Source of the DNA: Enteractinococcus coprophilus
Lineage (GTDB): Bacteria; Actinomycetota; Actinomycetes; Actinomycetales; Micrococcaceae
Length of the DNA: 64,000 nt
Assembly: GCF_006716305.1 (NCBI RefSeq)
Contig: NZ_VFOU01000001.1
Span: 558,001 to 622,000 of the forward strand
Direction: 5' to 3'
The position numbers and the translations under genes were made by a program. Numbering within the stretch: position 1 is the stretch's first letter; each line of letters opens with the position of its first letter. Below the pieces are notes generated by a model, which did no database searches, had not been told where the DNA came from, and saw only the letters and a list, made by a program, of their open reading frames with translations. Positions 6,561 to 64,000 of the stretch are shown here, piece by piece.

Positions 6561-7916
6561 ATGACCACCGCTGTATCTCCAGGGCACTCCCCGGTTTTGC
6601 GTATCCTGCGCATCGGGCTGCACGTGATGTTTGCGCTATTGTTGCTGCTGGGACTGGTCCGCACCTTTCTTCCCGCCAACGGCGTGCCAGCACCGCCCAT
6701 ACACCACCGATTATTCATCGTCTTTCTCGTTGTGGTGCTGGCCCTGGTGTATGTACTGGGGACCTCGCGAGAGTACCGTCGGTACCGTCAAGACAGCGGT
6801 GCCACCGGGGATGTGTCGGCAACCCCTGCAGCGGCTGCAACCAACACCCTGGTGTGGGGATGGTTGATAGTGATTACTGCGTTGTGGCTGACGCTGTTGT
6901 TTTTGAGTCCAGCCTTTGTCTGGGTCGCGTTCCCGTTGATGTTTCTCTACCTCGCCCTGGCAGGAAAAGTCTCTGGAGTGGTTGTCGTGGTGCTCCTGTG
7001 GGTGGCCGCCTGGGTTGTGCCGTGGTGGGATACGGTGCGCGCCACGGGGCCACAGTCTCCGGATATTGCCACTATCCTCGGCCCCGGTATCGGTGCCGTC
7101 TTAGCCGTACTGGTCTCGGCTGCCTATCGACATTTGCTGGGCCAGGCGACGCATCACCAGCGGGTTGCCGCAGCGCTGCGCGCGGCCCAAACCGATCTCG
7201 CCATCACTGAACACCGGGCCGGCCAGCTTGAAGAACGCGAACGCTTGGCTCGCGAAATCCACGACACCCTGGCCCAGGGGTTCTCGTCCATCGTGTTACT
7301 CGCCAGGGCAGCCGGCCAGCACGAGCTGCCAGCACCCACGCATCGAGCGTTGGAAACCATCGAAGAAACCGCCGTCGCTAATCTGTCTGAGGCCCGAGAA
7401 CTCGTGCGTCACCTGTCCACTGCCGATCCCCATGTCTCGCTGGGTACAGAGCTCGAGCGGCTCACCGCACGCTACGAAACCGAACTTGCCGTGCGCAACC
7501 AACCCTTACAAACCTCTCTGCGGTGGGAAGGGGACTCTCCGGCGACCCTGTCTGAGCCCGTCCGAGCCGCCGTGTTGCGTACCGTCCAAGTTGGATTGGG
7601 CAATGTCGCCGCCCACGCCCGCGCCCGTCACGCCGTCATCACGATTGGGATCTGGCCCAATGAACTCACCGTGGATATTTTTGACGACGGCGTGGGTTTT
7701 GACGTCCCCCACACCTTTCGGCCAGGTTTCACGCAAGCACCACACAACCCGCAAGACCAGCACACCGGATATGGTCTCTACGGTCTCGAACAACGCCTGA
7801 CCGCCCTCAAAGGCAGCCTCACCGTTGAATCGACCCCCGGCGAAGGTACGGTGCTTGCCGCGAGGATCCCGCTGACCAGTCAATCCAACCGGTCCGCCCA
7901 GGAGGCAACACCTTGA
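6561..7916 (+). CDS. NarL-type sensor histidine kinase
   Basis: The product is 451 residues from ATG 6561. An in-frame codon at 6504 would add 19 untypical residues. At least five N-terminal hydrophobic segments (about 12-215) form a membrane sensor without a large extracytoplasmic domain. The HisKA_3 dimerisation/phosphoacceptor motif ERERLAREIHDTLAQG carries the phospho-His, and the HATPase_c domain shows FDDGVGFD and GYGLYGLEQRL. The gene overlaps the response regulator by four bases. Its position opposite an ABC exporter suggests that it senses the exporter's substrate or cell-envelope stress. No clear Shine-Dalgarno precedes this ATG. Confidence 0.88.
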   Translation: MTTAVSPGHSPVLRILRIGLHVMFALLLLLGLVRTFLPANGVPAPPIHHRLFIVFLVVVLALVYVLGTSREYRRYRQDSGATGDVSATPAAAATNTLVWGWLIVITALWLTLLFLSPAFVWVAFPLMFLYLALAGKVSGVVVVVLLWVAAWVVPWWDTVRATGPQSPDIATILGPGIGAVLAVLVSAAYRHLLGQATHHQRVAAALRAAQTDLAITEHRAGQLEERERLAREIHDTLAQGFSSIVLLARAAGQHELPAPTHRALETIEETAVANLSEARELVRHLSTADPHVSLGTELERLTARYETELAVRNQPLQTSLRWEGDSPATLSEPVRAAVLRTVQVGLGNVAAHARARHAVITIGIWPNELTVDIFDDGVGFDVPHTFRPGFTQAPHNPQDQHTGYGLYGLEQRLTALKGSLTVESTPGEGTVLAARIPLTSQSNRSAQEATP

Positions 7917-52454: not shown

Positions 52455-53975
52455 TCACGCGCGGCCAGCAGCTAGAGCTACCCGCAGCCCAAAGTCCTCA
52501 GACTGCCGATGTGGCTTGCTCAAGCACTTCAGTCTTTGGGCGTTCCGTAGCAGCCGCGCTATATTGGCTAAATGCTCCACGGAAAGCTGCCGCAGGATGC
52601 GTTGCAGGCAGGCGATCCGCACCGGTGAGTCGGCCGCGCGGGTTTGTTCCTTGCTGTGGAGTAATTCCTCAGCAGATCGAGCCATGCCCCGACGCCGTAA
52701 TTCGGGGATGATGTGTTCAATGAATTCGACATAGCTTCCGGGGAGCGTTGCATTGATGACGTTGATACCGTCAATGCCCGCGTCCTGCCACCGTTCGAGT
52801 TCATCCACGATCTGTTCCGGAGTTCCAGTGATGCGCGTTGCTTGGGCGCGGAACCGTGCCAGGTCGCGCACGGTCATATCCCCATCCGGCACCATTTTTT
52901 GCAGCTCAAGCAGGTGCCCGCGGGAACCTTCGGTGGTGAGTTCACCGATCGGAGTATCCAGCGGTAAATACCCTAAATCAACACCCAGGCTGCCCCCGGT
53001 GTGGGCGATCAGCGCGTGATCATCCAATGATTCGTCGAGATCGGCTGCTTTAGCGCGGGCCTCTGCCTCCGTGGAGCCCACGACGAACGACAAGCCTTGA
53101 ATGAATTTCACATCGTGCGGGTTACGACCAAATTCGGCGGCACGGCGTCGTATATCAGCGGCCTGTTCCTCAGCCTGTTCGATGCGCGGTGCCATCGAAA
53201 ACGTTGCTTCAGCGTGTTCGGCGGCAACCTGACGCCCCCGAGGTGAGGATCCGGCCTGGAAGAGCAGCGGCGTGCGCTGCGAAGATGGTGATGACAGGTG
53301 CGGCCCATCGACCTGATAGTTATCGCTGCAGTGATAAATTTTGGCGATCTTCGCCGGATCCGCGTGGAGCCCAATCCCGCGCTCATGCTTTCGGGTTTTA
53401 TCCGCCAACAGGGCATCGTCTTCCCAGGAACCCTCCCAGAGTTTATAGCAAACTTCGAGATATTCTTCGGCAAGATCATATCGATCAGCATGCCGGGCTA
53501 GTCCCGGCCCGCCGTAGTTGCGGTGCGCGTTCTCCAGGGCGGAGGTCACAACATTCCACCCCACCCGGCCGCCGGTCAGGTGGTCTAAGGTACTCAGCTG
53601 CCGGGCAAACGTGTACGGATGGGTCTGGATAACCGATGAGGTCAGTGCCAGGCCGATGCGTTGCGTGGTCGCAGCCAAGGCAGATAGTAACACCAGTGGA
53701 TCGTTCGCTGGGATCTGCAGACCGCGGCGAACATGCGAAGCCCAACCACCTTCGTGATCCCCATAGACGCCGACCACATCGGCGAAGAAGGCAATATCAA
53801 ACCCACCGTCTTCGAGTGTTTTCACTAACTCCACCCAGTGCGAGAGCTCATTGAAGCGGTGCTGTTGTGCCTCGTCACGCCGCCAAGCACCGCCCAAAAT
53901 ATGGCTGGTGGTATTCATCATGAATGCTGACAGAATCAGCGGGCTGCGCTGCAGGGAAGAAGACTGAGGTGACAA
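52455..53975 (-). CDS. NtaA/SnaA/DszA-family LLM flavin monooxygenase, last gene of SAM-riboswitch operon
   Basis: The product is 506 residues from TTG 53973-53975 (AAAGGAG nine bases before), giving MSPQSSSLQRSPLILSAFMM. The luciferase-like barrel has GGFDIAFFADVVG, TFARQLSTLDHLTGGRVGWN and TPLLFQAGSSPRGRQVAAEH, hallmarks of FMNH2-dependent monooxygenases that cleave C-S or C-N bonds (NtaA, DszA, SfnG relatives). After GMARSAEELL it carries about 70 extra residues not present in the paralogue at 58.9 kb. Located 44 nt after tandem metQ genes, it probably processes an imported sulfur compound. The region 52296-52454 shows no gene. Confidence 0.82.
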   Translation of the reverse strand: MSPQSSSLQRSPLILSAFMMNTTSHILGGAWRRDEAQQHRFNELSHWVELVKTLEDGGFDIAFFADVVGVYGDHEGGWASHVRRGLQIPANDPLVLLSALAATTQRIGLALTSSVIQTHPYTFARQLSTLDHLTGGRVGWNVVTSALENAHRNYGGPGLARHADRYDLAEEYLEVCYKLWEGSWEDDALLADKTRKHERGIGLHADPAKIAKIYHCSDNYQVDGPHLSSPSSQRTPLLFQAGSSPRGRQVAAEHAEATFSMAPRIEQAEEQAADIRRRAAEFGRNPHDVKFIQGLSFVVGSTEAEARAKAADLDESLDDHALIAHTGGSLGVDLGYLPLDTPIGELTTEGSRGHLLELQKMVPDGDMTVRDLARFRAQATRITGTPEQIVDELERWQDAGIDGINVINATLPGSYVEFIEHIIPELRRRGMARSAEELLHSKEQTRAADSPVRIACLQRILRQLSVEHLANIARLLRNAQRLKCLSKPHRQSEDFGLRVALAAGRA

Positions 53976-54019
53976 AGCGGATCGCTCCTTTGAAATACTG
54001 CGTGTGGCGTTTGTGGTGG

Positions 54020-54922
54020 TTATTTTTGGGTGAAGTTTTCCCAAGGGTCAGCAATGTTATCGGTCGTGTATTCGTCGGTGAATGCGACCGACCCCTCCAG
54101 GTATTCCGCGAACCAGTCTTGGACCTGCGGGGAATGATAGGCCTGTTGCAATGCCTGAATCTTTTCACTGTCCTCGGTGCCGGGTTGGACACCGACGACG
54201 ATCGAGTACGGCAGCGACTCATCGAGCTCTGGTTCCAGCTCGAGGGTTATCTCATCAAGGTCGTAGTCGGCTTCGACCACCATGCGAACAAATGAGAACC
54301 CGGCGTCGACGTCGGGCAGGGTCTGCGCGGTCGATTGTTGATCGACTTCAATGAAGTCGAAGTCGTGTGGATTATCGACGATGTCGTCCTGTGACAGCTG
54401 GGTGACATCAACAGATTCATCGATTTCTAGCAGTCCGGCATCGGCGAGGATCTTGATGCCACGCCCGTTATTTGCGGTATCGACTGGCAACGAGATTTGG
54501 GCGCCGTCTGGAAGCTCATCGAGGCTGTCGTATTGCAGCGAGAACAGCCCTGCTGGAGCGTAGTAGACCGAGAACGCCGGTGCCACGTCGGTGTCATTAT
54601 CCTTGTTGAACTGACGCAGATATGCAGCATTCTGGAAGTAGTTGGCGTCGTATTCGCCGCGTGAGACCACTTGGTTTGGTTGAATAATGTCGGTGACATA
54701 CGTGGTGTCCAGTTCCCAACCATCTTCGGCCAAGACTTCTTTGGCGATCTCAGTCGGTTCTTGGTACGGCGCCGATTCTGTCACGATTATTCGGATCGTA
54801 CGGTCTTCAACTTCTTGCACAGACGGAGCCGCTTGGGTCAATCCGCAGCCACCCAGTGCAAATGCCGCCAGGCTCAGGCTGATAACCCCAAAGTGACGCT
54901 TGGTTTGAAAAATATTTTGCAT
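54020..54922 (-). CDS. metQ2: MetQ-type substrate-binding lipoprotein (second copy)
   Basis: The product is 300 residues from ATG 54920-54922; a GTG at 54943 overlapping the upstream stop is an alternative. The lipobox is LGGC. The NlpA/MetQ fold is seen in VTESAPYQEPTEIAKEVLAE, YDANYFQNAAYLRQFN and VDTANNGRGIKILADAGLLE. It is clearly a tandem duplicate of the preceding gene, with the same motifs in register. It captures methionine or a related sulfur compound outside the membrane. Operon: metN-metI-metQ1-metQ2-LLM. Confidence 0.87.
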   Translation of the reverse strand: MQNIFQTKRHFGVISLSLAAFALGGCGLTQAAPSVQEVEDRTIRIIVTESAPYQEPTEIAKEVLAEDGWELDTTYVTDIIQPNQVVSRGEYDANYFQNAAYLRQFNKDNDTDVAPAFSVYYAPAGLFSLQYDSLDELPDGAQISLPVDTANNGRGIKILADAGLLEIDESVDVTQLSQDDIVDNPHDFDFIEVDQQSTAQTLPDVDAGFSFVRMVVEADYDLDEITLELEPELDESLPYSIVVGVQPGTEDSEKIQALQQAYHSPQVQDWFAEYLEGSVAFTDEYTTDNIADPWENFTQK

Positions 54923-54939
54923 AAGAAGTCTTCTTTCAA

Positions 54940-55857
54940 TCACTCTGCGGTGAATTCTGCCCAGATTTCCTGGGCATTATCGATGGTGATGTCATCGTTG
55001 TATTCGATGGCGCCGTCAAGATAGTCCGCAAACCATTCCTGCACTTCAGGGGACTGATACGCACGTTGCAGTGCCCGGGTTTTTTCAGAGTCCTGTTCCC
55101 CCGGCTGCACGGCAATGACGTTGGTGTACGGACGGCGCACGTCATCATCGTCTTCTAAAGCCAGGGCCACGTCGTGCACGTCATGACCTGCTTCAGCGAC
55201 AAGACGAGCAAACGCGAAACCGGCATCCACATCGGTCAGTGTGTGGGCCGATGATTGCTGATCAATTTCAATGAACTGAAAATTCTTGGGGTTATCGATG
55301 ATATCGGCTTGGGATAGCTCGGTGACGGGTACGGACTCATCGATTTCGAGAAGACCGTGATCGGCCAGCAGTTTGATGCCACGCCCGTTATTGGCGGTGT
55401 CCACGGCCAATGAGATTTCCGCGCCGTCAGGTAGCTCTTCGAACGAGTCGTGCTGCAGGGAGAAGATCCCGGAGGGCTGGTAATAGGTCGAAAATGCAGG
55501 TTCCACCTCGGTGCCGTTATCTGCGTTGAATTGTCGTAGATAGGCCAGGTGTTGGAAATAGTTTGCGTCATATTCACCCTGGGAAACCACTTGGTTGGGC
55601 TGCACAATATCTGTGACGTAGGTGGTCTCGAGCTCCCAACCATCTTCGGCAAGCAGTTCTCGAGCAATTTCGGTGGGTTCTTGGTAGGGGGCAGATTCAG
55701 TGACGATCAAGCTGATGGTTTTGTCTGCGGCGCCACTATCGGCGGAATTTGCTTGTGTCACACCGCAGCTTGTCAGCGTCAGGGCTGCTAGGGCACCTAG
55801 CGCGGCGGTGATTTGATGGCGGGTGCTGGATGTGATTCGGGTAGTGAAAAATGGCAT
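54940..55857 (-). CDS. metQ1: MetQ-type substrate-binding lipoprotein (first copy)
   Basis: The product is 305 residues. The signal peptide ends with lipobox LTSC. VTESAPYQEPTEIARELLAE, YDANYFQHLAYLRQFN and VDTANNGRGIKLLADHGLLE define the NlpA/MetQ family. It lies 46 nt after metI. Its sequence is close to, but diverged from, the second copy, especially in the C-terminal lobe, so the two may prefer different ligands. Confidence 0.9.
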   Translation of the reverse strand: MPFFTTRITSSTRHQITAALGALAALTLTSCGVTQANSADSGAADKTISLIVTESAPYQEPTEIARELLAEDGWELETTYVTDIVQPNQVVSQGEYDANYFQHLAYLRQFNADNGTEVEPAFSTYYQPSGIFSLQHDSFEELPDGAEISLAVDTANNGRGIKLLADHGLLEIDESVPVTELSQADIIDNPKNFQFIEIDQQSSAHTLTDVDAGFAFARLVAEAGHDVHDVALALEDDDDVRRPYTNVIAVQPGEQDSEKTRALQRAYQSPEVQEWFADYLDGAIEYNDDITIDNAQEIWAEFTAE

Positions 55858-55903
55858 GGCAAATCCTCGAGAGGTCGATAAGAGTGTGAGTAGTCGGTGT
55901 GGT

Positions 55904-56566
55904 CTAGAGACGTTTGTCGGTCACGCAAGCCAGTCGATTGCCGCCCAGCTGGACCGCGGTGACCAGTAGCACCATGAGTATGACGGCGATGACCATAACC
56001 GGAGTCTCGTACCGGTAGTAGCCATAACGGATCGCAAAGTCACCGATCCCGCCACCGCCGACTAATCCGACCATTGCTGAGTAGGAGATAAAGCTAACGG
56101 TGGTGATGGTGATGGAGCCGATGATGCCGGGTTTGGCATCGACGAGCAGCACGTTGCGGATGATTTGCCTGCGGGTTGCTCCCATGGCTCGGGATGCTTC
56201 GACCGCGCCGGTACCCAGTTGGGTGATGTTTTGTTCGACGAGGCGCGCGAAATACGGGATGGCGTTGATCGTCAGTGGCACGATAGCGGCTGCGGTGCCG
56301 ACCGTTGTTCCTACGACGAATCGGGTGAAGGGAATGATGGCGATCAGCAGGATCAGGAATGGAAACGATCGCAGCATATTCACCAGGCCACTGACGAATG
56401 CATGCAATTTAGGTTGCGGAGCGATCGATCCGGGGGCGTGGACAAAAAGCCAGATACCTAACGGGGTGCCAAGTAACACGGCGATGGGGATGGCCACCCC
56501 GATCATCGCGAACGTTTCGAGGAGGGCTTGGATGAGTTCGGGGCGAAGTTCGATAATCCGTTGCAT
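55904..56566 (-). CDS. metI: methionine-type ABC transporter permease MetI
   Basis: The product is 220 residues with five to six transmembrane helices. The binding-protein-dependent permease (EAA) loop is GAVEASRAMGATRRQIIRNV. MLRSFPFLILLIAIIPFTRF is typical of MetI. The start overlaps the metN stop by one base (TAATG). It forms the membrane channel with MetN; MetQ proteins deliver the ligand. Confidence 0.92.
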   Translation of the reverse strand: MQRIIELRPELIQALLETFAMIGVAIPIAVLLGTPLGIWLFVHAPGSIAPQPKLHAFVSGLVNMLRSFPFLILLIAIIPFTRFVVGTTVGTAAAIVPLTINAIPYFARLVEQNITQLGTGAVEASRAMGATRRQIIRNVLLVDAKPGIIGSITITTVSFISYSAMVGLVGGGGIGDFAIRYGYYRYETPVMVIAVILMVLLVTAVQLGGNRLACVTDKRL

Positions 56567-57429
56567 TAGTCGCGCCCTCCTGCCACCGCAACTGGCTCAC
56601 GATCAAGTGCCCGTTCGACCCCGGTCACCGCTGTGACTGGAGTCAGGGTGTCTGCACTCGTCGGGGCACGGTCCACTTGGATGCCATCGGATACCAAGTA
56701 TTTACCGATGGCGGTCGCCGGCTGGAATTGCGGGTCGTGGAGTTGCAGTGCTGGGAACCGTTCCACGATTCGGCCGGATTCCATCACTGCGACGTGATCG
56801 GTCAGTGCTTTGACGACTTCCATTTCGTGTGTCACCACGACCACGGTGATGCCGAGTTCGCGATTAATATCGGCAAGATACTGCAGGACAGTCGCGGTGG
56901 TAAACGGGTCCAGTGCTGAAGTTGGCTCATCGCAGAGCAGAACGCGCGGGCGGGTGGCCAGGGCTCTGGCGATCGCCACCCGTTGTTTCTGACCGCCCGA
57001 TAGGTGCGCCGGATACGCATCGGCTTTTTCTGCGATATCGACGATGCTTAACGCCTCGGCGGCACGTTCGCGACGATCACGGCTGCCCTTCACCCCGGCG
57101 AATTTCAGCGACAGCTCAACGTTTTGTGCCACGGTGAGGTTGTTAACCAGGTTGAAGCCCTGAAAAATCATGCCAATCTGATGACGGGCTTGGCGGAGCT
57201 CTTCGTCATTGAGCTGGGTGAGGTCCGTGCCGTCAAGCAGAACTTGCCCCTGGGTTGGGCGTTCCAGCAGGTTGATATTGCGCAGGAGCGTTGACTTTCC
57301 GGCACCGGAGAACCCAATAATGCCTTGGATACTACCCTTTGGAATATCCAGGCTGACATCGTCAACTGCTGTAACAGGAGTTTTGCCACGCGCGGTAAAG
57401 ACGGTTGAAATATTGCACAAAGAAATCAT
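56566..57429 (-). CDS. metN: methionine-type ABC transporter ATPase MetN (short form)
   Basis: The product is 287 residues. Walker A is GFSGAGKST, signature LSGGQKQRVAIARAL, Walker B VLLCDEPTSALDP and switch VVVTHEMEVV. The first 240 residues match MetN, but the C-terminal NIL domain (about 80 residues, methionine sensing in the Escherichia protein) is absent and replaced by a short low-complexity tail. Feedback may therefore rest on the SAM riboswitch in the leader, whose 3' stem overlaps the Shine-Dalgarno GGAG (57436-57439). Confidence 0.9.
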   Translation of the reverse strand: MISLCNISTVFTARGKTPVTAVDDVSLDIPKGSIQGIIGFSGAGKSTLLRNINLLERPTQGQVLLDGTDLTQLNDEELRQARHQIGMIFQGFNLVNNLTVAQNVELSLKFAGVKGSRDRRERAAEALSIVDIAEKADAYPAHLSGGQKQRVAIARALATRPRVLLCDEPTSALDPFTTATVLQYLADINRELGITVVVVTHEMEVVKALTDHVAVMESGRIVERFPALQLHDPQFQPATAIGKYLVSDGIQVDRAPTSADTLTPVTAVTGVERALDREPVAVAGGRD

Positions 57430-57437
57430 CGATCACT

Positions 57438-57532
57438 CCATTGTTCCTGGCAGTAGCACCGTCCAACTTGGTGAAACAAGGTGGTGGTTGCTGCGACGTC
57501 AACGAGCCAGATCTCTCGGTCGCTCTGAATGG
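57438..57532 (-). ncRNA. SAM-I (S-box) riboswitch upstream of metN
   Basis: Read on the minus strand the leader contains GACCGAGAGATCTGGCTCGT, then TGACGTCGCAGCAACC and GGTGCTACTGCC. These are the S-box core blocks (GAGGGACTGGCCC, GTGAAGCCCGGCAACC, GGTGCTAATTCC pattern). P1 can form from CCATT (57532-57528) and AATGG (57442-57438). The 3' P1 strand includes the GG of the metN ribosome-binding site six bases before the ATG, so SAM binding should block translation. Actinobacterial S-boxes of this pattern commonly precede methionine genes. Confidence 0.8.
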
Positions 57533-57544
57533 TTTGCATGTGAA

Positions 57545-57705: not shown

Positions 57706-57712
57706 AGGCACC

Positions 57713-57788
57713 GGACACGGGGTGCGCCGCCCGGCGCTGAGAACATACCCGCTGAACCTGATCTAGTTCGAACTAGCGAAGGGATGTT
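57713..57788 (+). ncRNA. TPP riboswitch (THI-box) no. 1, upstream of SDR-LLM genes
   Basis: Conserved blocks in order are GGGGTGC, CTGAGA, ACCCGCTGAACCTGATCTAG and the 3' element AACTAGCGAAGGGA. CTAGTTCGAACTAG forms the P4/P5-side hairpin. ACA/TGT closes P1. The 3' GAAGGGA is itself a Shine-Dalgarno sequence, so TPP binding can hide it. The first genes downstream are a short-chain dehydrogenase (58131) and an LLM monooxygenase, not classical thi genes; a leader of about 340 nt separates them. Confidence 0.92.
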
Positions 57789-57793
57789 TATCG

Positions 57794-57940
57794 GTGCATT
57801 CTCACACCAGCATTTTTCTGCACGGTCTTAGCAGACCAAGCCTTTCACCTAGCTGCCGATGGTCTTCCGTGCTGCGCATCGGCCGGTCATACTCTGAGCA
57901 CCCGCCCGATTCACGGTGGCTCAAGACGCCCTGCTTGACT
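57794..57940 (+). CDS. 48-codon leader reading frame after TPP riboswitch (doubtful)
   Basis: GTG 57794 lies nine bases after the GAAGGGA element, the same geometry as the thiD GTG behind the second riboswitch. The frame MHSHTSIFLHGLSRPSLSPS continues to TGA 57938-57940. No family is recognised and the composition looks random, so it could be a leader peptide, the residue of a lost gene, or chance. Between 57941 and 58130 there is nothing else I can support. Confidence 0.25.
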
Positions 57941-58130: not shown

Positions 58131-58895
58131 ATGCAACTATCACAACAACTTGTTCTGGTCACCGGCGGCGCCCGTGGCTTGGGCAAACGCATCGTCAAGG
58201 CGTTTGCCAGCCAAGGAGCTCGGGTCGTGATTAACTACCACCAAAGCCACCAAGCGGCCCAACAACTGGTTGAAACGCACGGCCCAGACCGCGCCCTCGC
58301 GGTGCAGGGCGACGTCACCGACCCAGCACAGGTCACGGCAATATTTAAAACCGCCCAACACCATTTCAACGCCCCCATCACCACGGTGGTTAACAACGCG
58401 CTGATGGACTTTTCGTTTAACGGGGACGCCCGCCCGCATCCAACAGATATTCGTTGGGAACATTTCGAGGCTCAACTGGCTGGCAGTGTTCGGGGCGCAC
58501 TCAACACGGTCCAGGCGGCGCTTCCCGGCATGCGCGACCAGGCATTCGGTCGCATCATCAACATTGGGACCAATCTGTTCCAACACCCCGTAGTGCCCTA
58601 CCATGACTACACGGCAGCAAAAGCCGCTCTGTTATCGCTGACTCGCACATTGGCCACGGATCTTGGACAACACCAGATTACGGTCAATATGGTGTCAGGT
58701 GGTCTATTGCAGACCACCGATGCCAGCGCAGCAACCCCCGATGAGGTTTTTGACCTCATCGCCTCATCGACCCCCTTGCGGAAAGCAACGACCCCGGAAG
58801 AGTTTGCTGATGCCATCATGTTCTTCGCTTCTCCGTGGGCCAGGGCCGTCACCGGCCAAAATCTGGTCGTTGACGGCGGCCTTGTGATGAACTAG
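58131..58895 (+). CDS. short-chain dehydrogenase/reductase, TPP-riboswitch operon
   Basis: The product is 254 residues forming a Rossmann fold. Cofactor motif is VTGGARGLGKRI; NNAL replaces NNAG; the catalytic Tyr-Lys is YTAAK. The residue 13 positions before the Tyr, normally Ser, is Thr (NIGTNLF). The C terminus ends VDGGLVMN as in FabG-like reductases. It lies in the first TPP-riboswitch transcription unit, 12 nt before an LLM monooxygenase. A redox step in thiamine-precursor salvage or thiamine-analogue breakdown is inferred from context only. Confidence 0.85.
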   Translation: MQLSQQLVLVTGGARGLGKRIVKAFASQGARVVINYHQSHQAAQQLVETHGPDRALAVQGDVTDPAQVTAIFKTAQHHFNAPITTVVNNALMDFSFNGDARPHPTDIRWEHFEAQLAGSVRGALNTVQAALPGMRDQAFGRIINIGTNLFQHPVVPYHDYTAAKAALLSLTRTLATDLGQHQITVNMVSGGLLQTTDASAATPDEVFDLIASSTPLRKATTPEEFADAIMFFASPWARAVTGQNLVVDGGLVMN

Positions 58896-58907
58896 GACGA
58901 GATTTCT

Positions 58908-60203
58908 GTGCGCGAACTGCATTTCAACCTCTTTCTCCACGGCTGCGGGCACCACCAGGCGGCCTGGCGCCATCCAGCGTCCGCGGTCGAGCAACTGACC
59001 GATATCACCTACTATGAGCGCCTAGCGCAAACAGCCGAAGCTGGGCTATTCGACGCGGTGTTCTTTGCGGATGGACAGTCTGTGGGTGCCCCATCTGCAG
59101 GTCCACTGTGGAGTTTGGAACCGTTGACCACGCTAGCCGCCATGGCCCGTAACACCACCCGTATCGGGCTCATTTCTACTGTGTCCACCACCTTTCACTC
59201 GCCTTTCCACGTGGCGAGAATGCTTGCCTCGCTGGACCACATTAGCCACGGGCGGATTGGTTGGAATGTGGTGACCTCAATGTTCGATGCAGAGGCACAG
59301 AATCATTCGATGGACGGGATGCCACCGAGTGACAAGCGCTATGCACAGGCTGCGGAATTCATTGATGTCGTAACTGCCCTGTGGGATTCCTGGGCTGATG
59401 ATGCGGTGCTGGCTGACCGGAACGGGCTCTTCGCTGATCCCACCAAGCTGTATCCGGTGGATCACGTCGGCGAACATTTTCAGGTGGCAGGACCTTTAAA
59501 TATTTCGCGCGGCCCCCAGGGCCGCCCAGTCTTGTTTCAGGCTGGTGCCTCAAAGGCAGGCCGCAATCTGGCGGCACGCTATGCCGAGGGGATCTACGCG
59601 GTAGCATACGATCAGACCCAGGGTCAGGAATATTATGCCGACCTGAAAACACGGATCGCCGGACAGGGTCGGAACCCGGCCACGGTCGCCATCATGCCTG
59701 GGCTGGTCACCTACCTGGGGTCTACCGAGGCTGAAGCCCGAGCACAACAAGCAGAAATTGATCAGCTGCTGCCTGCCACCCAATCCTTAGCCCAGTTATC
59801 TACGTTTCTTGGGCAGGACTGCAGTGACTGGGACCTTGATATGCCCGTTCCCGACCTGCCGCCGCCTGCTGAATTCGCTGGCCCACAAGGTAGGTATGCC
59901 ACGATCCTGCGGATTATTGAAACAGAGCGCCCCACGGTTCGCCAACTGCTGGGCAGACTGGCAGCGGGCGGTGGGCACTGCACCATGGTGGGGACGCCCG
60001 AGCAGGTGGCTGATGCCATCGAATGTTGGTTTAGCACAGGTGCCGCCGATGGTTTTAATCTGATGCCCCCGCTGTTGCCTGGCGCAATAGAAGAGTTCAT
60101 TGACCGGGTGGTTCCCATCCTGCAGCGTCGGGGTTTATATCGCACCGCATATACGGCGTCCACTTTGCGAGGCCACCTCGGACTGGAGCGGCCTAGCGTC
60201 TGA
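58908..60203 (+). CDS. NtaA/DmoA-family LLM flavin monooxygenase, TPP-riboswitch operon
   Basis: The product is 431 residues from GTG 58908 (GGACGAG before it). The luciferase-like barrel has AGLFDAVFFADGQSVG, VARMLASLDHISHGRIGWNV and GRPVLFQAGASKAGRNLAAR. Such enzymes use FMNH2 and O2 to open or cleave C-S, C-N or N-heterocyclic bonds. Its place between two TPP riboswitches, after an SDR gene and before thiD, marks it as a candidate thiamine-metabolism enzyme, for example acting on a degraded pyrimidine or thiazole. Length matches the family, without the C-terminal tail of the 52.4-kb paralogue. Confidence 0.86.
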   Translation: MRELHFNLFLHGCGHHQAAWRHPASAVEQLTDITYYERLAQTAEAGLFDAVFFADGQSVGAPSAGPLWSLEPLTTLAAMARNTTRIGLISTVSTTFHSPFHVARMLASLDHISHGRIGWNVVTSMFDAEAQNHSMDGMPPSDKRYAQAAEFIDVVTALWDSWADDAVLADRNGLFADPTKLYPVDHVGEHFQVAGPLNISRGPQGRPVLFQAGASKAGRNLAARYAEGIYAVAYDQTQGQEYYADLKTRIAGQGRNPATVAIMPGLVTYLGSTEAEARAQQAEIDQLLPATQSLAQLSTFLGQDCSDWDLDMPVPDLPPPAEFAGPQGRYATILRIIETERPTVRQLLGRLAAGGGHCTMVGTPEQVADAIECWFSTGAADGFNLMPPLLPGAIEEFIDRVVPILQRRGLYRTAYTASTLRGHLGLERPSV

Positions 60204-60254
60204 ATGTAGAGCGTTCCAAAACCAGCCTGACCACCATATTTCAACTCGACTTGC

Positions 60255-60328
60255 GGGCACGGGGTGCGCTGTTGCAGCGCTGAGACAACACCCGTGGAAC
60301 CTGATCTAGTTCATACTAGCGAAGGGAT
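60255..60328 (+). ncRNA. TPP riboswitch (THI-box) no. 2, upstream of thiD
   Basis: The blocks GGGGTGC, CTGAGA, ACCCGTGGAACCTGATCTAG and ACTAGCGAAGGGA occur in canonical order. The 3' half is nearly identical to the first riboswitch; the P3 stem (GCGCTGTTGCAGCGC) differs. GAAGGGA lies 10 bases before a GTG (60336), so translation of thiD is probably controlled directly by the aptamer. Confidence 0.93.
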
Positions 60329-60335
60329 GTCCATA

Positions 60336-61238
60336 GTGACTTCACTGAACCTTGATGTTGTTCCTCGCGTATTATCCATCGCAGGAACTGACCCTTCTGG
60401 CGGTGCCGGCACCGCTGCAGACCTCAAATCCATTACCGCAGCCGGCGGTTACGGGATGGCTGTAGTGAGCTCACTAGTGGCTCAAAATACGCACGGGGTG
60501 CGGGCTATCCACACCCCGCCGACCACGTTTCTTGCCGCACAACTCCAGGCAGTGAGCGACGACGTCACCATTGACGCGATGAAAACCGGCATGCTGGGCA
60601 CCGCAGAGATTATCGAAACCGTGTCTGCCTGGCTCGATGACCATCCACCACAGGTTTTGGTGGTAGACCCGGTCATGGTAGCAACCAGCGGCGACCGGCT
60701 GATTGATCGGCGCGCAGAGCATGCCATGATCCAGTTCTGTACTCGGGCCACACTCGTGACTCCAAATATCGACGAGCTGGCGGTCCTGACCGGCGCTACC
60801 CCGGCCACGAACGAATCCGAGGCCATTGCCCAAGCATCCGACTGGGCCGCCACCACCGGGGTTTCAGTGCTCGTCAAAACCGGCCATCTCACCTCCCGCA
60901 GGATCACGAATACCTGGGTCGGTCCCGAAGGTGTGCGCACTTCGGCCTATGCCACCCGCCTTGCGGTGACCAGTACACACGGCACCGGGTGTTCCCTGTC
61001 TGCAGCGCTTGTCACCCGGCTTGGTGCCGGAGATGATCCGGCCACCGCGCTCTTGTGGGTCACCGATTGGCTCCACGAAGCCATCCAACACGGTGAAGCG
61101 CTCAATGTCGGCACAGGGCAAGGGCCGGTAGATCATTCCTACCGATCACGACGCAGCCTGGTGGAGACACCACCAACAGCGTCCAAAAATCCATCCGAGA
61201 CGCCGTCCCTGAATTTGATACAGGGTGAGGTTCGATGA
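60336..61238 (+). CDS. thiD: hydroxymethylpyrimidine (phosphate) kinase
   Basis: The product is 300 residues from GTG 60336; ATG 60327 abuts the ribosome-binding element and is less likely. Ribokinase-fold motifs are SIAGTDPSGGAGTAADLKSI, DAMKTGMLG, VVDPVMVATSGDRL, LVTPNIDELAVLTG and the catalytic end TSTHGTGCSLSAAL. It phosphorylates HMP and HMP-P to HMP-PP. About 35 C-terminal residues (after VDHSYRSRRS) are extra and Ser/Pro/Thr-rich. It overlaps the transporter gene by four bases. Confidence 0.93.
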   Translation: MTSLNLDVVPRVLSIAGTDPSGGAGTAADLKSITAAGGYGMAVVSSLVAQNTHGVRAIHTPPTTFLAAQLQAVSDDVTIDAMKTGMLGTAEIIETVSAWLDDHPPQVLVVDPVMVATSGDRLIDRRAEHAMIQFCTRATLVTPNIDELAVLTGATPATNESEAIAQASDWAATTGVSVLVKTGHLTSRRITNTWVGPEGVRTSAYATRLAVTSTHGTGCSLSAALVTRLGAGDDPATALLWVTDWLHEAIQHGEALNVGTGQGPVDHSYRSRRSLVETPPTASKNPSETPSLNLIQGEVR

Positions 61239-62620
61239 CACAACTTCCTACCGCGACCTCAACATCGTCGACTAGACTCAGCGATCTGCCACCGGCGGGT
61301 CAGGCTGCGTTGCGAGCCGGGGTGGTTGGCAACTGGATTGACAATATTCATGTGTTCCTGCCATTAACCGCTCTAGCACCGGCCATGGTGGTTCTGGCGG
61401 GTCCCACGACCGGTGCATCAACCGCCGCACTGGTGGTGGTCGCAATGCTGTTTGGACGCCCCCTAGGTGGCGTGATTTTTGGGCGACTCGCTGACCGGTT
61501 CGGCCGAACTCGGACCACCCGCATAGCCATCGGCGGCACTGCTGCGTGCGCACTGGCCATTGCCCTGCTGCCCACATATGACGTGCTGGGTAGCGGGACC
61601 ATCGTTTTGATCTTGGCGTTGCGGTTCCTCGGTGGGATCTTTGTGGCCGGCCAATATTCAGCAGCTATTCCGCTGGCGATGGAGTGGTCTACCCCGCGCC
61701 GTCGTGGCCTCATGAGCGGGCTGATCCTTTCGATGGCGCCATGGGCCCAAGCAAGCATCGCGCTGGCCGTAGCAATACTGTTGCTGGTGCTAGGCCCTGA
61801 CGCGTATGCCGCGTGGGGTTGGCGGGTCCTATTTGTCCTCGGGGCGATGTTGTCGCTCGGTTTACTGCTCTATTACGGTCGCCAGGTCACCGACGCCCCG
61901 ATATTTGACCGCCATATCCAACGGGATCGGGAACAACCAACCCAACCACGGACACGGCTGCGCGACATGCTGGTGGGTACGTGGGCTTCAGCGTTCTGGC
62001 AGGTGTTTCTGCTGATGACCGGGTTGTGGTTGCTGACCAACAGCACGGTGCTGCTACTCACCGCACGGCTGGCAACTGATGCCGGCCTGTCGGACACGCG
62101 AGTCTCTGTGACGATTGGCATCGCCACGATTGCCCAGGCACTGGTTATGGCACTGGCGGGGCATCTATCCACCTACATCGGGCGACAAAAACTCTTCGTT
62201 ATCTGGGGGCTAAGCGCCGTGCTGGTGGCTCCGTTCATCTGGCGGCTGGCGGTGACATCATCGTCATTGAGCCAGGCAATCTTGTGTACAGCGGTGCTTC
62301 AGGTGATCACGGTCGCCGCCTACGGTCCTGTATCGGCGTACCTTTCCGAGCGGTTCCCCACCGAGGTGCGCTCCACCGGCTATGGCATGGGCTATAGCCT
62401 ATCCCTGGTGCTTCCGGCGTTATATCCGTTCTATCTACCGTTGATTGAACCGGTGCTGGGACGACACGGTTCAGTCATGGCGATGGTTGCGCTGGGCGGC
62501 GCCCTGGTAATTGTTGGTGCTCTACTTGGCCCGCGCTTAACGCCCCGAGAGATCGATCAGCAACTGGACGTCGTGGCCGCGACCTTGGCAACCGACCGAT
62601 ACAAGGGCGGTAGGCTATGA
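61235..62620 (+). CDS. MFS transporter in the thi operon, candidate thiamine-precursor carrier
   Basis: The product is 461 residues with 12 transmembrane helices. MFS loop is GRLADRFGRTRTTRIAIGGT and LRFLGGIFVAGQYSAAIPLA corresponds to the MHS-family second signature. AYLSERFPTEVRSTGYGMGY is also typical of that family. Four-base overlaps on both sides (with thiD and thiM) make it an integral part of the operon. Known actinobacterial thiamine-related importers are mostly ECF, NMT1 or CytX types, so this MFS carrier would be a different solution for HMP, thiazole or a related compound. Direction of transport is not provable here. Confidence 0.85.
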   Translation: MTQLPTATSTSSTRLSDLPPAGQAALRAGVVGNWIDNIHVFLPLTALAPAMVVLAGPTTGASTAALVVVAMLFGRPLGGVIFGRLADRFGRTRTTRIAIGGTAACALAIALLPTYDVLGSGTIVLILALRFLGGIFVAGQYSAAIPLAMEWSTPRRRGLMSGLILSMAPWAQASIALAVAILLLVLGPDAYAAWGWRVLFVLGAMLSLGLLLYYGRQVTDAPIFDRHIQRDREQPTQPRTRLRDMLVGTWASAFWQVFLLMTGLWLLTNSTVLLLTARLATDAGLSDTRVSVTIGIATIAQALVMALAGHLSTYIGRQKLFVIWGLSAVLVAPFIWRLAVTSSSLSQAILCTAVLQVITVAAYGPVSAYLSERFPTEVRSTGYGMGYSLSLVLPALYPFYLPLIEPVLGRHGSVMAMVALGGALVIVGALLGPRLTPREIDQQLDVVAATLATDRYKGGRL

Positions 62621-63390
62621 GCCCTGATCCTGACGTGCAAGGCATCGCCAGTGTGCTGAATGCGGTGCGTGAGCAGCAGCCTGTGGTGCATTGCATCACC
62701 GCGACCGTTTCGATGGGCATCGTGGCCGATGGGCTACTCGCCGCCGGTGCACGACCGATGATGACCGAGACCATGCACGAAGCACCCGTCCTGACGACCG
62801 CCGCCGATGCGTTATTGGTCAACCTGGGCACTCTGAGCAGCGATGCGATGGAAGGTATTCCGGCAACCGTGGAGGCCGCGGTTGCTGCCGGGCACCCGTG
62901 GGTTCTTGATCCCACGGCCATCGGGATAGCTCCGGTCCGGACGCCGCTGGCTCGCACCCTGTTGGCTTCTCGCCCAACGGTGGTGCGCGGCAACGCCTCA
63001 GAAATATTGGCCCTGGCCGACGCTGGGCCGGGCGGACGGGGTGCTGACTCACGTGCCACCCCGGACATGGCCCGGGATGCGGCTGTGACGATCACCGACC
63101 GCACCGGTGGTGCTGTGGCAGTGTCCGGTGCGGTGGATTTGATTGTCGACGGGTCCCAGCAGCGTCGAGTGCACCGCGGAACCCGAATGCTCACCCGGGT
63201 GACCGGTACCGGGTGCTTACTGGGTGCGCTGACTGCGGCGTGTGCTGCGGTGAGTCCAGACCGGTTCCTGGCGGCCGTGGCTGCCACCACGTGGCTCACC
63301 CTGGCCGGCGAAATCGCACTCGAGCGTGCCGCAGGTCCCGGATCCTTTCGGTTACATGTACTTGATGCGTTAGATGAGGTTGGACAATGA
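62617..63390 (+). CDS. thiM: hydroxyethylthiazole kinase
   Basis: The product is 257 residues. Motifs QPVVHCITATVSMGIVADGL, MMTETMHEAP, WVLDPTAIG, VVRGNASEILALA and VTGTGCLLGALTAA match ThiM, with the catalytic Cys in the last. The usual Asn in 'vN' of the first motif is replaced (TATVSMG). It phosphorylates hydroxyethylthiazole salvaged from outside. Overlaps its neighbours by four bases each (ATGA). Confidence 0.92.
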   Translation: MSPDPDVQGIASVLNAVREQQPVVHCITATVSMGIVADGLLAAGARPMMTETMHEAPVLTTAADALLVNLGTLSSDAMEGIPATVEAAVAAGHPWVLDPTAIGIAPVRTPLARTLLASRPTVVRGNASEILALADAGPGGRGADSRATPDMARDAAVTITDRTGGAVAVSGAVDLIVDGSQQRRVHRGTRMLTRVTGTGCLLGALTAACAAVSPDRFLAAVAATTWLTLAGEIALERAAGPGSFRLHVLDALDEVGQ

Positions 63391-64000
63391 ACCTAGAGTT
63401 CCGGTGCTATCTGGTCACTTCCGGTACCGATCGAAGTACAGTTGATACTGCAGCACAGGCAGCTCGCGCTGGCGCCGGGATGGTTCAGGTCCGGGCCAAA
63501 AAAACGTCCGCAGCCCAGTTGCTCCAGCTGACCGTGGCTGTCGCCGAGGCGGTGGCTGAGGCAAATCCGCAGACCCGTGTAGTGGTCAATGATCGTGTCG
63601 ACATCGCCATGGCGGCCCGACAGCGCGGTGCCGCTGTGCACGGGGTACACCTTGGTCAAGAAGACCTACCGGTCACCGATGCTCGCACCCTGCTGGGCGG
63701 CGAGGCAATCATCGGGTTGTCCGCCGGGACCCTAGAGCAGGTTCGACAGGCAGATCAGTATCGTAAAATCATCGACTACCTAGGAGTGGGGCCTTTTCGA
63801 CCCACTCCGACCAAAGACTCGGGGCGTGAACCCCTGGGCCTGACCGGCTATCCAAGAATCGTAACAGCGACACAGCTGCCGGTCATAGCCATTGGGGATG
63901 TCACACCGCAAGATATTGGTGAGCTCGCCGGAACCGGCATCGCCGGGGTGGCTTTAGTTCGTTCGATCATGCAGGCGGCGCAGCCCGGCCGTGTGGTGCA
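63387..64000 (+). CDS. thiE: thiamine-phosphate synthase (3' end cut by window)
   Basis: The visible 204 residues begin MNLEFRCYLVTSGTDRSTVD. VQVRAKKTSAAQL, VVNDRVDIAMAA, GVHLGQEDLP, YLGVGPFRPTPTKDSG and AIGDVTPQDIGELAGTGIAG match the ThiE barrel, including the pyrophosphate-binding loop. It joins HMP-PP and thiazole phosphate. With thiD, thiM and the carrier it completes a salvage route; no de novo thiC or thiG is seen in the window. Confidence 0.93.
   Translation, partial: MNLEFRCYLVTSGTDRSTVDTAAQAARAGAGMVQVRAKKTSAAQLLQLTVAVAEAVAEANPQTRVVVNDRVDIAMAARQRGAAVHGVHLGQEDLPVTDARTLLGGEAIIGLSAGTLEQVRQADQYRKIIDYLGVGPFRPTPTKDSGREPLGLTGYPRIVTATQLPVIAIGDVTPQDIGELAGTGIAGVALVRSIMQAAQPGRVV

Follow-up and report, generated by a model that had tools for sequence, protein, structure and literature searches.

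The window, by which we mean the whole 64,000-nucleotide stretch of Enteractinococcus coprophilus DNA that was analyzed, ends on the plus strand in a thiamine salvage operon in which a TPP riboswitch is followed by the genes thiD-MFS-thiM-thiE (Table 1). The reading frame of the MFS carrier shares a four-base ATGA overlap with the gene on either side (thiD stop at 61238, thiM start at 62617), as the original prediction had it, and the carrier stands, again as predicted, under the same riboswitch as the thi genes. Such overlaps are ordinary in operons, and it is conservation that counts. The thiD product has no TenA domain, unlike that of many relatives, which encode ThiD-TenA fusions. The GTG at 60264 falls within the aptamer and is an unlikely start for thiD; the conserved 3′ end of the aptamer, GAAGGG, lies about 9 bases ahead of the likely GTG start, a layout common to many relatives, and probably doubles as the ribosome-binding site of thiD. 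The operon closes with thiE just beyond the window, where a convergent LysR gene comes next.

Table 1. Features of the window at and upstream of the thiamine salvage operon.
Feature	Coordinates	Strand	Basis and remarks
MetN/MetI/MetQ-like operon	52455..57429	-	
SAM riboswitch	57435..57535	-	
Second TPP riboswitch	57708..57801	+	
SDR	58131..58895	+	
NtaA/DmoA-type LLM monooxygenase	58908..60203	+	
TPP riboswitch (THI element)	60250..60344	+	Rfam RF00059, 74.9 bits, E 6e-13; heads the operon; thiD follows immediately
thiD, HMP/HMP-P kinase, 300 aa from likely GTG start	60336..61238	+	PF08543 E 1e-70, Pfam/NCBIfam
MFS carrier, 461 aa, ATG start; MHS-like, outside the MHS model; predicted HET importer	61235..62620	+	PF07690, TIGR00883 below cut-off, conserved thi context, AlphaFold pLDDT 92
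thiM, hydroxyethylthiazole kinase	62617..63390	+	PF02110 E 1e-62, NF006830 over cut-off
thiE, thiamine phosphate synthase, 222 aa overall	63387..64000, continuing about 55 bases past the window end	+	PF02581; remainder from locus L009

Five TPP riboswitches were found in this genome, heading the thiD-MFS-thiM-thiE operon, an SDR/LLM pair, a YkoFEDC-type system, a ThiBPQ-like ABC system and, in one case, no recognizable gene. The last (positions 7066-7166 of locus L056; G000:C1:1016065-1016165) has only a 100-aa ORF behind it, and its target gene has possibly decayed. The SDR/LLM pair lies just upstream of the operon, and the role that a TPP-controlled flavin monooxygenase might have in B1 salvage is not obvious. 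On the opposite strand, the SAM riboswitch heads an operon in which two MetQ-type lipoproteins are encoded alongside a second NtaA/DmoA-type LLM monooxygenase, a content that suggests sulfur-compound salvage. A profile search of the genome found neither ThiC nor a full-length ThiG. The TPP-controlled YkoFEDC and ThiBPQ-like systems are candidate importers that would cover HMP, the pyrimidine half of vitamin B1, and thiamine, and the MFS protein is the sole candidate we found in this host for import of hydroxyethylthiazole (HET), the thiazole half.

The carrier belongs to the MFS (PF07690, 96.1 bits against a cut-off of 33.4), with the 12-TM fold of that superfamily, which its AlphaFold model also displays (pLDDT 92, pTM 0.91). 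The model matched OCTN2, URAT1 and XylE at Z 34-38 over about 400 residues, with OCTN2 and URAT1 among the closest solved structures by Z, and a PDB sequence search with the carrier returned only distant SLC22 and phosphate carriers. It had been described as MHS-type (TC 2.A.1.6), and TIGR00883 is indeed its best-matching subfamily model; however, at 153.7 bits against a curated cut-off of 443.45 it falls outside that family, and the label is only approximate. An orthologue of the carrier scored 144.7 bits, whereas E. coli YhjE, ShiA, KgtP and ProP all passed (482-510 bits). Identity to these four proteins was 24-27%, and YhjE, at 27%, was no closer than ProP. Residues that are constant in 73 clade members and absent from all eight near relatives include N33, T268, M305, V360 and Y363, which we assigned to TM1, TM7, TM8 and TM10 by helix only, using where the helices of the model begin and end and the standard MFS topology. 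TM1, 7 and 10 form the walls of the MFS cavity, which makes these residues candidate substrate contacts.

Within 59 relatives, ten genomes (the host's own copy counted) held a copy of the carrier at at least 52% identity; the next match was at 35%, and the others at about 30% and less. Scanning a single genome from each species yielded 80 named loci, distributed over Micrococcaceae, Dermabacteraceae, Propionibacteriaceae, Intrasporangiaceae, Microbacteriaceae, Actinomycetaceae, Brevibacteriaceae and others, and in a class-wide sample of 373 genomes carriers were too few for statistics. Five of the 80, in Arthrobacter, Pseudarthrobacter and Pseudonocardia, are relatives at 39-41% identity without a thi link, and all clade counts refer to the remaining 75. 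The phylogeny that the original prediction had called for placed the thi-linked carriers in one monophyletic clade (100/99) of about a dozen actinobacterial families. Counted with a model built in this analysis, a TPP riboswitch lay immediately 5′ of the carrier in 27 of the 75 and ahead of the operon in 39 (66 in total); thiM was directly downstream of the carrier in 51, and thiD was a neighbor in 26. A second look with Rfam at ten loci, either mid-clade or weak, placed the upstream TPP match above the gathering threshold in L119, L128, L107 and L087 and at 48.8-52.5 bits against a gathering value of 54.3 (E 2e-6 or better) in L111, L123, L126 and L130; L105 was still weak, and L109 was below gathering in the standard mode. 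A TPP riboswitch, thiM or both accompanied the carrier in 70 of the 75 members, and five had neither nearby. The original prediction was to fall if the operon position were unique to this strain and homologues elsewhere had a proven unrelated substrate; with 70 of 75 members thi-linked, that is not what we found.

The arrangement itself varies. Genomes G001 and G004 have MFS-thiM-thiE under its own TPP riboswitch and thiD under another, and elsewhere a solitary carrier stands directly behind its own TPP riboswitch (genomes G009 and G046; loci L047 and L048). At two Arthrobacter loci (L107, L116), a solitary carrier gene and a thiM-thiE-thiD operon, each TPP-controlled, face each other.

Which precursor a genome would need can be read from its complement of synthesis and salvage genes. 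Among the 59 relatives, all 10 genomes with the carrier had ThiM, compared with 14 of the 49 without it (Fisher p 3e-5); ThiG was present in 1 of the 10 and 23 of the 49 (p 0.04), and ThiC showed no trend. The combination of ThiC and ThiM without ThiG was confined to two of the 59, both of them carrier genomes. The 50 named carrier genomes, which include one from outside the clade (L129, one of the two without ThiM), had ThiM in 48, ThiC in 21 and ThiG in 8 (42 without); ThiC and ThiM without ThiG were found in 18 and ThiM alone in 23. These counts are not independent, as the carrier genomes are related and were found via the carrier, with three common to both sets, and those for ThiG leave out weak matches (E 1e-4 to 1e-8), which occur in almost all genomes and span a small part of the profile. 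A profile search for Thi4 gave no match in 51 carrier genomes, and the five controls were matched. At seven loci (L089, L091, L094, L096, L098, L102, L106), thiC comes after the TPP riboswitch and before the carrier; its identity was confirmed by Pfam in L089, L091, L094 and L106 and taken from ThiC coordinates and sequence in the other three. The carrier is followed by thiM in all seven and by thiE in five, the Enemella loci L089 and L096 being those without thiE, and six of the genomes lack ThiG, the exception being Enemella evansiae (L096). In Kytococcus (L133) the order is TPP-thiC-carrier, and thiM is located elsewhere. Since the six genomes lacking ThiG would make HMP from the carrier's own operon, HET would be the precursor they are missing.

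We propose, with a probability of roughly 0.6, that the carrier imports HET, and consider this the best reading because ThiM is near-universal in carrier genomes, ThiG is mostly absent, Thi4 is absent and thiC occurs in carrier operons. The 12-TM protein would bring in HET, probably by proton symport; ThiM would phosphorylate it to HET-P, which ThiE would join to the HMP-PP supplied by ThiD, giving thiamine phosphate, and TPP would switch off the whole operon through the riboswitch. Substrate, direction of transport and proton coupling are all predicted here from sequence and gene context. Several points count against HET. Five of the eight ThiG-positive genomes in the set of 50 lack ThiC, so HMP would be the precursor they need; the five clade members mentioned above have neither thiM nor a TPP riboswitch close by; 7/49 carrier-less relatives have ThiM but neither ThiG nor ThiC and must therefore have a different route for HET; and HET, being small and neutral, may not need a carrier.

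The original prediction had named HMP, HET and the substrate of the LLM/SDR pair as candidates; a role of the carrier in thiamine-precursor salvage is supported, with HET now clearly in the lead. HMP fits less well: thiD adjoins the carrier in Yaniella and others, the host has no ThiC, and ThiG occurs without ThiC in five carrier genomes, but the 18 of 50 with ThiC and without ThiG make their own HMP, thiC sits within the carrier's operon at seven loci, thiM is a commoner neighbor than thiD (51 against 26 of 75) and YkoFEDC is already present in the host, and we regard HMP import as improbable. Support for the LLM/SDR substrate has not materialized, and we consider its import very improbable, as the pair, although TPP-controlled and close by, has its own riboswitch and, among the 80 loci, accompanies the carrier only at L083, in Yaniella.

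Unlikely, in our judgment, is the import of a carboxylated or otherwise modified thiazole, for example carboxy-HET (cHET), whose anion would enter with protons and be processed en route to ThiM. MHS-like carriers frequently transport organic anions, and two of the nearest relatives outside the clade are found among catabolic genes, in clusters that also encode aldehyde dehydrogenase and carboxymuconolactone decarboxylase; on the other hand, the substrate of ThiM is HET, and no decarboxylase gene lies beside the carrier in the operons inspected. In E. coli and in algae, cHET is usable as a precursor of B1 (PMC5899164). The solitary carriers behind a TPP riboswitch (L047, L048) recall thiamine importers and could point to transport of thiamine itself, or else the protein could export pathway intermediates. 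ThiM in 48/50 carrier genomes would not be expected under either alternative, the host has a TPP-controlled ThiBPQ-like ABC system, and repression by TPP suits uptake better than export; we think it improbable that the carrier works in either way.

Import of HET by this clade would matter because, in the literature we searched, the bacterial HET carriers that are named, ThiW and ThiU, are both predictions, and we found there no report of measured HET uptake or of an experimentally tested bacterial HET carrier. The clade offers a well-bounded candidate, with species that make HMP, lack ThiG and have thiC-carrier-thiM-thiE in one operon. The carrier is present in Cutibacterium, Micrococcus, Brachybacterium and Actinomyces, genera of skin, oral and cheese-rind communities, and would thus bear on the exchange of B1 precursors there.

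An MHS carrier within a thi operon had been put forward as a new carrier class, a claim that the literature anticipates. ThiU (TC 2.A.1.6.12, H. influenzae HI_0418) is an MHS carrier encoded in a thi cluster; it is a HET transporter by prediction only, and the MHS member YhjE is its closest relative (PMC10588857, citing Rodionov 2002); ThiW/ThiU are the HET carriers in Table 1 of PMC6593275. What would be new is the carrier family. Like ThiU, our carrier is an MFS protein of a thiamine salvage cluster with thiM, thiD and thiE under thiamine control; unlike ThiU, which is listed in the MHS family, it falls far below the MHS cut-off and was not grouped with YhjE in the tree. ThiW, an ECF S component predicted to take up HET (PMC6593275), has the same proposed role and belongs to another protein class; a ThiW profile search gave no match in 51 carrier genomes, a result that does not imply absence, as the controls were also unmatched. 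MHS proper (YhjE, ShiA, KgtP, ProP) shares the MFS fold and the best subfamily model with the carrier, at 482-510 bits against 145-154. Plasmid MFS carriers of Prescottella, Sodalis and Paraburkholderia (33-35% identity) are among the carrier's closest relatives that lack a thi link; they have no thi genes nearby and differ at N33, T268, M305 and Y363; those of Sodalis and Paraburkholderia lie in catabolic clusters and that of Prescottella amid varied metabolic genes.

In a 41-row tree, built without two paralogues (par_L033, par_L043) that had been extracted badly and gave absurd branches, the thi clade formed one branch (100/99) and its nearest rows were non-thi relatives. Constraining the thi clade to join YhjE without these relatives was rejected (dlnL 189), whereas joining all three was not (p 0.12). 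With YhjE standing in for the ThiU branch and HI_0418 itself outside the comparison, separate recruitment appears likelier than orthology with ThiU, because the MHS cut-off was missed, the nearest rows are non-thi and the grouping of YhjE with the thi clade alone was rejected. We give even odds to a fuller scenario, in which a hitherto undescribed MFS subfamily, not part of MHS proper, arose when an ancestor shared by many Actinomycetia took a carrier whose substrates were unrelated, and perhaps catabolic, into service for import of the B1 thiazole precursor, independently of ThiU and ThiW.
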